Assembly: GCF_016107285.1 (NCBI RefSeq)
Contig: NZ_RCVQ01000003.1
Coordinates: 496,001 to 560,000 of the forward strand
DNA length: 64,000 nucleotides
Direction of reading: 5' to 3'
DNA from: Roseomonas sp. KE0001
Lineage (GTDB): Bacteria; Pseudomonadota; Alphaproteobacteria; Acetobacterales; Acetobacteraceae
The notes beneath the pieces were generated by a model. That model did no database searches, was not told where the DNA came from, and was given only the letters and a program-made list of their open reading frames with translations. Position 1 is the first letter of the stretch, and each line of letters opens with the position of its first letter. This document shows, in pieces, positions 37,840 to 55,581 of the stretch. The translations under genes were made by a program, and so were the position numbers.

Positions 37840-37959
37840 AGCAAGCTTAAAACCCGCGTCGGTGCTTGTATAAAATTACGGAAAACATGCGCTTAGACGG
37901 CGCAGCGCCGAATCGACGTGAATCGGTAAATAAACGTGATGGGTGGGAGTCAAGAGCGT

Positions 37960-38369
37960 CAGACGGCCTGTAAGCCGGGTTCTGTCCAGAGCCTGGCGCA
38001 AGCCTGACCCTGGGGCGACCATTCCTCTGGGACATGCCTCGCGGCATGCCTCTCGCGGCCAACCCGGGTGGCGGGGCGGGAATGCCCCTGCGGCCGAGAC
38101 CCTCGCGGATCTCCCGCCGGCCACCCCTATTCGGCCTTGCTCCCGGTGGGGTTTACCCTGCCGCCCCTGTTGCCAGGGGCGCGGTGCGCTCTTACCGCAC
38201 CGTTTCACCCTTGCCGGGGCGGCAAGCCGGCCCGGCGGTTTGATTTCTGTGGCACTGTCCCTGGGGTCGCCCCCGCCGGCCGTTGACCGGCACCGTATTC
38301 CCGTGGAGCCCGGACTTTCCTCCAGCCCCGGAACCTGTCCGGGACCAGCGGCCGCCCGGCCGTCTGACG
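37960..38369 (-). ncRNA. rnpB: RNase P RNA (bacterial class A)
   Basis: About 410 bases. The minus strand shows the conserved core: GAGGAAAGTCCGGGCTCC near the 5' end, ACAGAAATCAAACCGCC, GGTGAAACGGTGCGGTAAGA, GGGTAAACCCCACC, GAATAGGGGTGGCC, and the 3' GGACAGAACCCGGCTTACAG. Terminal helix P1 pairs AGACGGCC at 38358-38365 with GGCCGTCT at 37961-37968. It removes 5' leaders of tRNA precursors. It is transcribed toward mraZ, which begins about 290 bases later. Ends are placed by P1 and are good to a few bases. Confidence 0.96.
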
Positions 38370-49875: not shown

Positions 49876-51582
49876 CTATTCCAGCCCGTCGTAGAAGTCG
49901 TTGCCCTTGTCGTCCACGACGATGAAGGCCGGGAAGTCCTCCACCTCGATCTTCCAGATCGCCTCCATGCCGAGCTCCGGATATTCCAGCACCTCGACCT
50001 TGCGGATGCAGTCCTGCGCCAGCCGGGCGGCGGGACCGCCGACCGAGCCCAGGTAGAAGCCGCCATGCTCCTGGCAGGACCGGGTCACCGCCTTGGAGCG
50101 GTTGCCCTTGGCCAGCATCACCAGCGAGCCGCCGGCGGCCTGGAAGCCGGCGACATAGCTGTCCATGCGGCCGGCCGTGGTCGGGCCGAAGGAGCCGGTG
50201 GGCAGGCCCTGCGGCGTCTTGGCCGGGCCGGCGTAGTAGACGGGGTGGTCCTTGATGTACTGCGGCAGGCCTTCGCCACGGTCCAGCCGCTCCTGCAGCT
50301 TGGCATGGGCGATGTCGCGCGCCACCACGATGGTGCCGGTCAGCGAGACGCGGGTCTTGACCGGGTGGCGGCTCAGCTCGGCGCGGATCTCGTCCATCGG
50401 CCGGTTGAGGTCGATGCGGACCACTTCCCCGCCCAGGATCTCGTCGGTCGCCTCCGGCAGGAAGCGGGCCGGATCGTGCTCCAGCGCCTCCAGGAACACG
50501 CCCTCCGGCGTGATCTTGGCCTTGATCTGCCGGTCCGCCGAGCAGGAGACGCCGATGCCGATGGGCAGGGACGCGCCGTGGCGCGGCAGCCGGATGACGC
50601 GGACGTCGTGGCAGAAGTACTTGCCGCCGAACTGCGCGCCGATGCCGAGGTTCTGCGTCAGCTTGTGCACCTCCGCCTCGAGCTCGGGGTCGCGCAGGCC
50701 GTGGCCGGACCTGTCGCCCGTGGTCGGCAGCGCGTCGAGGTAGCGGGTGGAGGCGAGCTTGACGGTCTTCAGCGTCGTCTCGGCCGAGGTGCCGCCGATG
50801 ACGATGGCCAGGTGGTAGGGCGGGCAGGCCGAGGTGCCGAGCGTCTTGATCTTCTCCTCCAGGAAGGCCAGCAGCTTCGGCTTGTTCAGCACCGCGCGGG
50901 TCTGCTGGTAGAGGAAGGTCTTGTTGGCCGATCCGCCGCCCTTCAGCACGAACATCATGTGGAACTCGTCCGCATGGTGGTCACCGGGGGAGGCGTAGAT
51001 GTCGAACTGGACGGGGAGGTTGTTGCCGGTGTTCACCTCCTCGAACATCGAGAGCGGCGCCATCTGCGAGTAGCGCAGGTTGGTCTCGGTATAGGTGCGG
51101 TGCACGCCGTAGGAGAGCGCCTCCTCCTCGTCACCCTCGATCCAGACCCGCTGGCCCTTCTTGCCGAAGACGATCGCGGTGCCGGTGTCCTGGCACATCG
51201 GCAGCACGCCACCGGCCGCGATCGAGGCGTTCTTCAGCAGGTCGAGCGCCACGAAGCGGTCATTGGCGCTGGCCTCGGGATCCTTCAGGATCCGCGCCAG
51301 CTGCTCCAGGTGGCCGGGGCGGAGGAAGTGGCTGACTTCCCTGCAGGCGGTGAAGGCCAGTTCCTCCAGCGCCTGCGGGCTCACCTTCAGGACCTTGCGG
51401 CCCTCGACCTCGATGACCCGCACGCCCTCGATCGGCAGCTTGCGGTAGGCGGTCCTGTCCTCGCCCAGCGGCAGCATCGGGCTGTAGCGGAAGCTCTCCG
51501 GGCGCTGCGAGACCGGCATCCCGGCATCGGTGTCCTTGATCGGCGTGTCCGCGAGGGGGGCGGCGGGATCGGCAGGGGGCAT
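49876..51582 (-). CDS. Class I fumarate hydratase (Fe-S)
   Basis: 568 residues with the long two-domain class I architecture. Three Cys ligands of the [4Fe-4S] cluster are expected at C130 ([11 protein letters not shown]), C253 ([12 protein letters not shown]) and C347 ([10 protein letters not shown]). The C-terminal domain has [19 protein letters not shown] and the N-terminal [13 protein letters not shown]. It does the same fumarate-malate reaction as fumC but depends on iron and is oxygen-sensitive. The ATG at 51582 has GGAG upstream. It heads the operon with ridA and the VOC gene. Confidence 0.95.
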
Positions 51583-51825
51583 GACGGCGCTCCGGCAGGA
51601 GGGCGGGGGGGAGACCGGTGGGCCGGGCAGGGTCCCGGGCGCCACCGGCGGGTGGTGGACTCCGGGCTGGAGGTAGCGCAGCCGGGCGGGCAAGCCAACA
51701 GGCGAGCCCCCGGGCCGCGGCCCGGACCGCGCGGCGGAGGGGCGGGAGGGCGCGGCTTCGCTGGACAGGCGGCACGGCGCATGGCTGCATGGACGTCCCC
51801 GGCCCGCCCGAGCGAGAGACGACCG
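51583..51825. other. GC-rich divergent intergenic region
   Basis: 243 bases between the class I fumarase and the HerA-like gene. It is extremely G+C-rich with palindromes such as GGGCCGCGGCCC around 51713-51724. No convincing promoter, RNA gene or small open frame was found. It must contain two divergent promoters, but I cannot locate them. Confidence 0.4.
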
Positions 51826-53508
51826 ATGGACCAAGCGATTCTCCTGGGCGCCAGCGACACGCCGCAATGGCTGCACCTGGCGCTCGCCAACCGGCACGGG
51901 CTGGTGGCCGGCGCCACCGGAACCGGCAAGACCATCACGCTCCAGGTCATGGCCGAGGCCTTCTCGCGCGCCGGCGTCCCGGTCTTCTGCGCCGACATCA
52001 AGGGCGACCTCTCGGGCATCAGCCAGCCCGGCCGGCCGAACCCCAAGGTGGAGCAGCGGGCGGCGGCGACCGGCGTCGCCGACTTCGCCTATGAGGGCGC
52101 GCCCGTCGTCTTCTGGGACGTCTTCGGCCGCCAGGGCCACCCGATCCGCGCCACGGTGGCGGAGATGGGGCCGCTCCTGCTCGCCCGCCTGCTGGAGCTG
52201 AACGACACCCAGGAGGGCGTGCTCAACATCGCCTTCGCCCTGGCCGACGATGACGGCCTGCTGCTGCTCGACTTCAAGGATCTGCGCGCCATCCTGGGCC
52301 ATGTGGCGGAGCGCGCCGCGGAGCTTTCCGCCGAGTACGGCAATGTCAGCAAGGCGACCATCGGCACCATCCAGCGCCGCCTGCTGGTGCTGGAGCAGCA
52401 GGGCGCCGAGCATTTCTTCGGCGAGCCGGCCCTGGCGCTGACCGACCTGATGCTGCTGGCCCCGGACGGGCGCGGCGCGGTCAACGTGCTGGCGGCGGAC
52501 GAGCTGGTGCAGCGGCCGCGCCTCTACGCCACCTTCCTGCTCTGGCTGCTCTCCGAGCTGTTCGAGGAGCTGCCGGAGGTGGGCGACCTGGAGAAGCCAA
52601 AGCTGGTCTTCTTCTTCGACGAGGCGCACCTGCTGTTCAAGGACGCGCCCCGGGCGCTTCTGGAGAAGGTGGAGCAGGTGGTGCGGCTGATCCGCTCCAA
52701 GGGCGTCGGCGTCTATTTCGTCACGCAGAACCCGCTCGACGTGCCGCAGGGCGTGCTGGGCCAGCTCGGCAACCGGGTGCAGCACGCGCTGCGCGCCTTC
52801 ACGCCGGCCGACCAGAAGGCGGTGCGCGCCGCCGCCCAGACCTTCCGCGCCAATCCCGGATTCGACACCGAGGCGGCGATCACCGAGCTCGGCGTCGGCG
52901 AGGCGCTGCTCTCCACCCTGCAGCCGGGCGGCGCGCCCGGGCCGGTGCAGCGGACGAGGATCCGCCCGCCGCAGTCCCGCATGGGCACCATCACGCCGGA
53001 GGAGCGGCAGGCCCTGATCGGGCACAGCCCGCTGGGCGGCAAGTACGACACGCCGGTGGACCGCGCCTCGGCCTATGAGCTGCTGCAGCAGCGGGCCGCC
53101 ACCGTGCCGGAGGAGGCCGGGCCGCACGCCTCTCCCTGGGGCGGGCCGGCGCCGGTGCGGGGCGGCAGCGCCTGGGGCAATGGTCAGGCAGGCGGCGCGG
53201 CGGAGGCGGGCGGGGAGGGCCAGGCCGGCGGCTGGAGCCCGGAGGCCTGGGGCCGTGGCGCCGGCACGCCGGCCCCGGGGCCCGCGCCGCGCCCTTCCGG
53301 CCGGCGGGCGCCGGCCCAAGCCGCGCCGCCGCAGGGCGCCGGCGGCGGGTTGTTGCAGGACATCCTCTTCGGCAGCGGCGGCGGGCGGCGCGACAGCCCG
53401 GTCGGCGCCCTGGCCAAGTCGGTGGCGCGCAGTGTGGGATCCCAGGTCGGCGGCCAGATCGGACGTGCCCTGGTACGCGGCATCCTGGGATCGATCAGCA
53501 AGCGCTGA
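51826..53508 (+). CDS. HerA/FtsK-like ATPase, DUF853 (helicase HerA-like C-terminal)
   Basis: 560 residues. Walker [19 protein letters not shown] near residue 30, ADIKGDLSG, Walker [17 protein letters not shown] and [22 protein letters not shown], an Arg-finger region [15 protein letters not shown]. This is the common DUF853 family of HerA-like ATPases, without a NurA-type nuclease gene nearby. After residue ~420 the protein is Gly/Ala/Pro-rich and ends with [19 protein letters not shown], a predicted amphipathic or Gly-zipper tail. Its biological role is not established. Confidence 0.88.
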
Positions 53509-53533
53509 GGCCCGCCGCCGTCGCGGGCGGGCC
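53509..53533 (+). terminator. Hairpin after the HerA-like gene
   Basis: GGCCCGCC (53509-53516) pairs with GGCGGGCC (53526-53533) directly after the stop codon and is followed by TTCC. It lies between converging genes. Confidence 0.6.
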
Positions 53534-53542
53534 TTCCGGCGC

Positions 53543-54082
53543 TCAGGCGCCGTCGCGTCCCGGGCGGCGGCGGAAGGCGTCCAGGCTGACCACCTGGGCG
53601 GGACTCTCGGCCTCCTCGGCCGGGGCGGCGGCGGGCAGCTCCTCGGCCTGCTCGGCCATGGGGGCGGGCTGCGCCGCCTGCGCCGGCTCCCGCGCGCTGG
53701 ACTCCGCCGAGGGGAAGCGAAGCCCGACCCGGACATGGGGATCCCAGAAGGCGGTGAGCGCCGCGATCGGGATGACCAGCGTGGCCGGCACACCGCCGAA
53801 GGACAGGCCGGCGGTGACGAAGCCCTGGCTCCGGTCCACCTTCAGGTCCCAGAACTGGTGCTGGAGGACGATGGTCATCTCCTCCGGATAGCGGGCCTTG
53901 AGATGCGCGGGGATGGAGACACCGGGAAGATCGGTGCGGAAGGTCAGGTAGAAGTGATGCTCGCCGGGTAGGCCGTGCTCGCTCGCATGGTCGAGCGCGC
54001 GCAGCGCGACCTCGCGCATCGCGTCCTCGGTCCAGCTGTCATAGGGGAGCAGACTCTCGGTCTGCCTCGTCTCTTCGGTCAT
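53543..54082 (-). CDS. sspB: ClpXP protease specificity-enhancing factor SspB (alpha type)
   Basis: 179 residues. SspB fold: [89 protein letters not shown] flexible Ala/Glu/Pro linker leads to [12 protein letters not shown], the C-terminal ClpX-binding peptide. SspB delivers ssrA-tagged polypeptides to ClpXP. Its gene directly follows the tmRNA gene on the same strand, whose tag it should bind. Confidence 0.92.
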
Positions 54083-54129
54083 CGGTCATATCCCGGCAGA
54101 CGCTTCAAGGTAGACCCCCATACCGGAAG

Positions 54130-54478
54130 TCTCGGGCGGCCGGGAAGTGGGCCCCCGGCAAGAATCGCCTGACAGGAATCGAGAGGACCCGGGCGGGGTT
54201 GCCTCGTCTGCGCGGAAGTGGGGGGATTCTGTTGCCCGGTTCCCCCCGGACCGCGCTTACCTATGGTTAGGCAGCGAGCGCCATGGTCTCGCGACCATTA
54301 TCGTTGGCACTTGTGATATAGCCCGATAACGGCGGTACAATGCCGGGCAAAAGACATGGCTTTACCACGCGCGTCGAGCCTGTTTCGCCCCCCTATGGTG
54401 GAGGCGCCGGGCACTGCCCCCGGGTCCGCAACGCTTATTCCACATGCCGTTTATCGCCATAGCCACCCGAAGGTGAGC
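54130..54478 (-). ncRNA. ssrA: tmRNA, circularly permuted two-piece form
   Basis: The acceptor piece comes first: T-arm CCGGG-GGCAGTG-CCCGG (54423-54407) and CGCCTCC-ACCA ending at 54396. Only three bases (TAG) follow before the coding piece starts GGGGGCGAAACAGGCTCGAC at 54392. CGCCTCC pairs with GGGGGCG and includes the G3-U70 pair that marks alanine charging. The reading frame 54308-54267 encodes ANDNGRETMALAA then TAA. GGGGGGA and TCCCCCC further on form a pseudoknot stem. It rescues stalled ribosomes. The outer ends are approximate; the 5' end is set from a TATATG at 54490-54485. Confidence 0.93.
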
Positions 54479-54484
54479 AAAGCG

Positions 54485-54490
54485 CATATA
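54485..54490 (-). promoter_or_regulatory. Putative -10 box of the tmRNA gene
   Basis: TATATG on the minus strand, about seven bases before the hairpin-bearing 5' leader (CACC-TTCG-GGTG). The matching -35 (TCGCAA at 54513-54508, spacing 17) is weak. Confidence 0.4.
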
Positions 54491-54642
54491 GGACATTCCT
54501 CTGCCGATTGCGAGAGGGGTGGCGCCTCCGCCGGTGCCCTGTTCCCGGGCATGCTCTGTTCCCTTGGGGCGCCCGACGGGCTATGGGCAGGCGCCGGGCC
54601 GGTCCGCCGGCCCGCCACACCCTGGCTCAGCAAGGCGGTTCC

Positions 54643-55581
54643 ATGGCGCTCACCCCATCCCAGCTTCAGGACCTCGCCGAGGCCAAGGCCTTCCGCGCCG
54701 AGACCCGCCGCCCCACCGTGCCGGCGCTGGAGGCCATGCTCTTCGAGCCCGTGCCGGTGCTCGACCACGGCTTCGTCCGCGTCATCGACTACATGGGCGA
54801 CGACGCGGCGGTGGTGCAGGCGGCGCGCGTCTCCTACGGGCGCGGGACGCGGGCGGCGAATGAGGACCGGGGGCTGATCCGCTACCTGATGCGGCACCGC
54901 CACTCGACCCCCTTCGAGATGTGCGAGATCAAGTATCACGTGAAGCTGCCGATCTTCATCGCGCGGCAGTGGATCCGCCATCGCACCGCCAATGTGAACG
55001 AGTATTCGGCGCGCTACTCGATCCTGGACCGGGAGTTCTACCTGCCGGCGCCGGAGCAGCTCGCCGCGCAGTCGGCCAGCAACCGCCAGGGCCGCGGCAC
55101 GGTGCTGCAGGGCGCCGAGGCCGAGCATGTGCTGCGCCTGCTGCGGCAGGACGCCATGACGACCTACGATCACTATGCCGAGATGCTGAACGAGGACGAG
55201 GCCGGTCAGCCGGCCGACCCCGCCCGCCAGGGGCTGGCGCGCGAGCTGGCGCGGATGAACCTGACGCTCAACACCTATACCCAGTGGTACTGGAAGACGG
55301 ACCTGCACAACCTGCTGCATTTCCTGAGCCTGCGCGCCGATGCCCATGCCCAGTACGAGATCCGGGCCTATGCCGAGGCGATGATGCGCTCGCTGGAGGC
55401 CTGGGTGCCGGCGGTGGCCGAGGCCTTCCGCGACTACCGGCTCGGCGCGGTGACGCTGTCGGCGCAGATGCTGGCGGTGGTGCGGCGACTGCTGGCGGGC
55501 GAGGCGGTGGAGCAGGGCGGCAGCGGGCTCTCGAAGCGGGAATGGCGGGAGCTGATGGAGCAACTGGGCCGTCCCGCCTGA
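54643..55581 (+). CDS. thyX: Flavin-dependent thymidylate synthase
   Basis: 312 residues. ThyX signature RHRxxSxxE is seen as RHRHSTPFE near residue 90, with [22 protein letters not shown] and the C-terminal [21 protein letters not shown]. It methylates dUMP using FAD, NADPH and methylene-THF. It shares that folate substrate with MetF. The ATG at 54643 gives [15 protein letters not shown]; an in-frame open region upstream runs antisense to the tmRNA promoter and is unlikely to be coding. Confidence 0.96.

Follow-up and report, generated by a model that had tools for sequence, protein, structure and literature searches.

The ribosome-rescue RNA, tmRNA, tags proteins that SspB then hands to ClpXP. 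In alphaproteobacteria its gene (ssrA) is permuted, with the acceptor piece placed before the coding piece and an intervening segment, or spacer, between the two. Published spacer lengths are 75–125 bp (PMC2704228, which cites tmRDB) and, for Hodgkinia, 129 nt (PMC6581868). RNase P can cut in a single-stranded loop region of a pseudoknot bearing a 3' RCCA motif (PMC12710915), and cryo-EM work summarised in PMC11143913 has the enzyme contacting N-1 and N-2, in addition to an RCC–GGU pairing. A tmRNA database published in 2025 lists 11,946 permuted sequences, and its description comments on the longest gene; in the passages covered we found no mention of a shortest spacer (PMC11915505). Spacers of only a few bases may have been described earlier, in older key literature.

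Here we analyse an ssrA gene from Roseomonas sp. KE0001 in which the spacer has three bases, using 'the window' for the whole 64,000-nucleotide stretch of DNA that was examined. Our best explanation, to which we would attach a probability of roughly three in four, is that this gene for a functional two-piece tmRNA has undergone spacer contraction and that one RNase P cut and 3' trimming would mature its transcript; the order of these steps, the enzymes and the two-piece product are predictions from sequence.

Results

A complete tmRNA gene with a three-base junction

The gene lies on the minus strand (54217–54517), where RF01849 (alpha_tmRNA) is matched at full length, over model positions 1–355, with 230.9 bits against a cut-off of 50 (E-value 5.5e-67 in a 3 kb search and 1.2e-65 across the whole window), and RF04321 with 142.3 bits. 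ARAGORN independently called a permuted tmRNA at 54176–54490, and a genome-wide search returned this gene as the only RF01849 match. Direct reading, Rfam and ARAGORN all place the acceptor segment 5' of the coding segment. The acceptor piece's share of the tRNA-like domain (54396–54458, minus strand), as delimited by the RF04321 alignment and the sequence, comprises the T arm, the 3' strand of the acceptor stem (CGCCTCC, 54400–54406) and an ACCA end, that is, the discriminator A and an encoded CCA (54396–54399). The tag reading frame (54267–54308, minus strand; positions 183–224 of the ARAGORN gene, 54490–54176) encodes ANDNGRETMALAA and a stop, the tag ending in hydrophobic residues and AA. 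The partner protein SmpB is also encoded in the genome (TIGR00086, 159.6 bits against a cut-off of 119.1). We read this ssrA as a functional tmRNA gene of the ordinary bacterial type, with a product predicted to be in two pieces.

Two divergent genes flank ssrA, thyX (54640–55581, plus strand; PF02511) and sspB (53543–54082, minus strand; PF04386), followed by a fumarase gene, the neighbourhood occupying 49876–55581 of the window. The order thyX–ssrA–sspB(–fumarase) is found again in many loci of the family and in several other alphaproteobacterial loci.

The minus-strand junction reads CGCCTCC-ACCA-TAG-GGGGGCG (54406–54386), so that TAG alone (54393–54395), delimited by direct reading and by comparison with relatives, stands between the acceptor CCA and the 5' strand of the acceptor stem, GGGGGCG (54386–54392), with which the coding piece is predicted to begin at 54392 from the sequence and the RF01849 alignment. 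One base here replaces 26 positions of the RF01849 model. All seven acceptor-stem pairs form between 54400–54406 and 54392–54386, G3–U70 included, and the 21-mer junction folds into exactly this stem with ACCAUAG as its loop (-11.4 kcal/mol, z -2.7). The initial annotation had proposed a permuted tmRNA with a three-base TAG spacer and an acceptor stem closed by the seven-base loop ACCATAG; the former is borne out, coordinates included, by direct reading, both Rfam models and ARAGORN, and the latter by the fold. Six Gs follow the TA, and the mature 5' end could therefore sit one base upstream, giving a spacer of 2 nt.

A single cut could free both pieces

It had further been supposed that maturation must cut twice inside this loop. 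Two cuts are not required, because a single RNase P cut would leave the acceptor piece with a UAG tail short enough for exonucleases to trim. In the maturation that we propose, the transcript would fold with its acceptor stem closed by ACCAUAG, and RNase P would dock on the T arm and acceptor stem with its GGU loop holding ACC. One cut before GGGGGCG would give the coding piece its 5' end; exonucleases working from the 3' end, RNase PH or RNase D for instance, would take the acceptor piece back from CCA-UAG to CCA; and the two pieces would remain paired and be charged with alanine. The presumed processing enzyme is represented in the window by a class A RNase P RNA (37955–38367, minus strand; RF00010, 287.3 bits, with alignment), in which the stretch CCCGGGUUGG, judged by its likeness to the consensus of the model, holds the GGU predicted to pair with RCC. 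The genome also encodes RNase PH and RNase D, both of which score over their cut-offs. A demonstration of RNase P acting on so tightly closed a CCA loop was not found in the literature consulted.

A rather improbable alternative is that an endonuclease other than RNase P cuts 3' of the CCA first, opening the loop, and that a 3-nt leader is afterwards taken off the coding piece by RNase P. Precursors that carry CCA are normally left alone by tRNase Z, which counts against such a course. In its favour, the pair that reviews consider probable for permuted tmRNA is RNase P with tRNase Z (PMC3985003), and a loop once opened would present RNase P with a normal substrate. However, no RNase Z exceeds the curated cut-off in this genome (a score below the cut-off is not proof of absence), and the sole RNase Z hit above 30 bits is a metallo-hydrolase with far higher scores against other models of such enzymes.

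Spacer length in the genus and family

Spacers of eleven other genomes of the genus, measured by script, are 18, 18, 32, 33, 33, 33, 34, 34, 36, 36 and 46 nt long, and at two more loci of the genus, L048 and L049, whose sequences were read directly, the spacers are likewise long and hairpin-bearing. The expectation that relatives would have longer spacers was thus correct: in the genus they are of 18–46 nt or more and usually bear a hairpin. The longer ones (loci L036–L049) often have in common a hairpin whose loop resembles GGAUCGU, for example CCAGGGATCGTCTGG, which suggests that the window genome has lost an element formerly conserved. One genome of the genus (G402), with a reported contamination of 5%, yields two equally scoring tmRNA matches, each on its own contig (L040 and L052); the double match may be a duplication or an assembly duplication.

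Across the family sample, RF01849 is matched in 374 of 398 genomes. A pattern allowing spacers of up to 30 nt matches 193 genomes, and among the matches listed (131 genomes parsed) spacers are mostly of 21–29 nt, with 2–4 nt in 12; the best 30 family loci by score have spacers of 5–95 nt. Nearly all unique spacers of at least 12 nt (103 of 105) fold into a hairpin of their own.

The protein of the neighbouring gene, ThyX, places the window inside its own genus, among genomes with spacers of 18–46 nt, and because of this nesting the 3-nt state is most simply a derived contraction in the window lineage, from about 30 nt with a hairpin. The tree, of 70 rows, implies about ten changes between short and long spacers, at least three of which are forced by well-supported branches alone. 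The initial annotation had named a longer segment in the same clade, aligning across these bases, as evidence against its reading; such segments exist, but the comparison shows the 3-nt state to be derived, and the reading of the gene stands.

Spacers of two to four bases recur

One genome from each of 84,980 species was scanned with a pattern allowing a spacer of 0–4 nt. This returned 64 loci, a number that, like the counts that follow, is a lower bound because the pattern fixes the acceptor sequence, and that includes related species which are not independent. Stem and tmRNA context are present in 62 loci, 36 with 4 nt, 16 with 3 nt and 10 with 2 nt; the two dropped were L063, without a stem, and L087, in which ARAGORN finds no tmRNA. 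No spacer of 0 or 1 nt was returned by the scan, and the 34 distinct sequence contexts comprise 8 with 2 nt, 11 with 3 nt and 15 with 4 nt, and none with 0–1 nt. ARAGORN or Rfam confirms 60 of the 62 loci as tmRNA. ARAGORN made no call at the other two, L079 and L099, the latter closely resembling the confirmed L070. The coding piece of L079 (166–191), from a marine single-cell genome, differs past the acceptor stem from that of its relatives (GGTTTGGGAAAG against GGTTTGACGG), and this is perhaps a chimeric or broken copy.

Holders of short spacers include Belnapia, Acidicaldus, Acidisphaera, Devosia, Odyssella, Commensalibacter, rumen genomes and marine single-cell genomes. A low-GC marine single-cell group of 26 loci has 4-nt spacers, ATAT or TTAT, and all but one of these loci (25/26) are called as tmRNA by ARAGORN, with the tag ANDNRLALAA or a near-identical one. 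An identical TAG spacer occurs in five scan loci (L059, L067, L075, L077 and L112), as well as in two genomes of the family sample (G002 and G043). At L101 (4448–4752), in a genome labelled Ectothiorhodospiraceae, the permuted tmRNA is of beta type (RF01850) and its spacer has 4 nt, which reflects either lateral spread or misbinning. With 62 other loci at 2–4 nt, five of them with TAG, the 3-nt spacer of the window cannot be considered unique. Judging from the genes compared, extreme spacer shrinkage has happened repeatedly among alphaproteobacterial groups unrelated to one another, with one case in a beta-type tmRNA, and databases of tmRNA sequences probably include the 2–4 nt class already, unremarked.

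Loss of the hairpin through an assembly error would also produce a 3-nt spacer, and the genus relatives do carry spacers of 18–46 nt with GC-rich hairpins. We consider such an artefact very unlikely: the acceptor stem has C–G where the measured genus relatives have U–A, and because both strands of the stem carry the replacement the junction sequence is coherent; furthermore, the identical TAG recurs in the independent records named above. That the RNA is never cut is an alternative that the initial annotation raised and the tiny loop invites; the transcript would then be a one-piece tmRNA closed by its hairpin, or the product of a dead gene. This deserves almost no credence, since an uncut hairpin has no free 3' CCA to be charged with alanine, the acceptor pairs, tag frame and SmpB are all intact, 4-nt spacers persist in functional genes such as those of the low-GC group, and two pieces are documented in Sinorhizobium (PMC2245857).

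A possible floor at two bases

Versions of the junction with 0 or 1 nt fold as well as the real one (RNAfold, -11.9 and -12.2 against -11.4 kcal/mol). Hairpin closure was therefore rejected as the cause of a 2-nt floor, which is more likely to lie in processing than in folding. Shrinkage seems to stop at 2 nt, and this hints at a minimal need of RNase P, a floor and a link that the sequence comparisons suggest.

In the unique spacers of the family that have 12 nt or more, the end next to the predicted cut has A at -2 in 62% and T at -1 in 70%, against 23% and 19% of 31 tRNA leaders of the window genome, with Fisher p-values (1.7e-4 and 8e-7 respectively) that overstate the significance, the comparison being between kin-related spacers of many genomes and the leaders of one GC-rich genome. 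The A at -2 is kept in 85% of short-spacer contexts; the window spacer has G at -1, not U. Taking the A(-2) bias together with the N-1 and N-2 contacts, we infer that the bases surviving contraction may be those that RNase P touches.

Discussion

A functional two-piece tmRNA gene with a contracted spacer, opened by RNase P and trimmed at the 3' end, is the reading that we prefer for this locus. A broader model can be offered tentatively, in which repeated shrinkage would bring spacers down to 2 nt and no further, these two bases being the N-2 and N-1 contacted by RNase P, the enzyme would cut inside the closed CCA loop, and one cut with 3' trimming would mature both pieces. In the 2–4 nt class, RNase P may grip the CCA and the cut site of one closed loop simultaneously. 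Such spacers, recurring at 2–4 nt and never found at 0–1 nt in the scan, would be natural minimal substrates for RNase P in which leader and CCA are tied together, and they show that the hairpin of longer spacers is dispensable. Cleavage with leader and CCA so tied was left open by a review for the permuted tRNA of Thermofilum with its 1-nt spacer (PMC3978253).

The window gene resembles the permuted alphaproteobacterial tmRNA of RF01849 and RF04321 in its acceptor-then-coding order, T arm, 7-bp acceptor stem with G3–U70, ANDN tag start and encoded CCA, and differs from it in having a spacer of 3 nt where roughly 20–40 nt are common in the family. The other tmRNA genes with 2–4 nt spacers share its anatomy, and the five TAG loci of the scan its very spacer, although they belong to independent lineages and the low-GC marine group has ATAT or TTAT instead. 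Outside tmRNA, the permuted tRNA-Tyr of Thermofilum pendens likewise has, next to an encoded CCA, a very short spacer of 1 nt that closes the acceptor loop (PMC3978253); that gene, however, is archaeal, and the splicing machinery rejoins its halves into a single tRNA, whereas the pieces of tmRNA are not joined.
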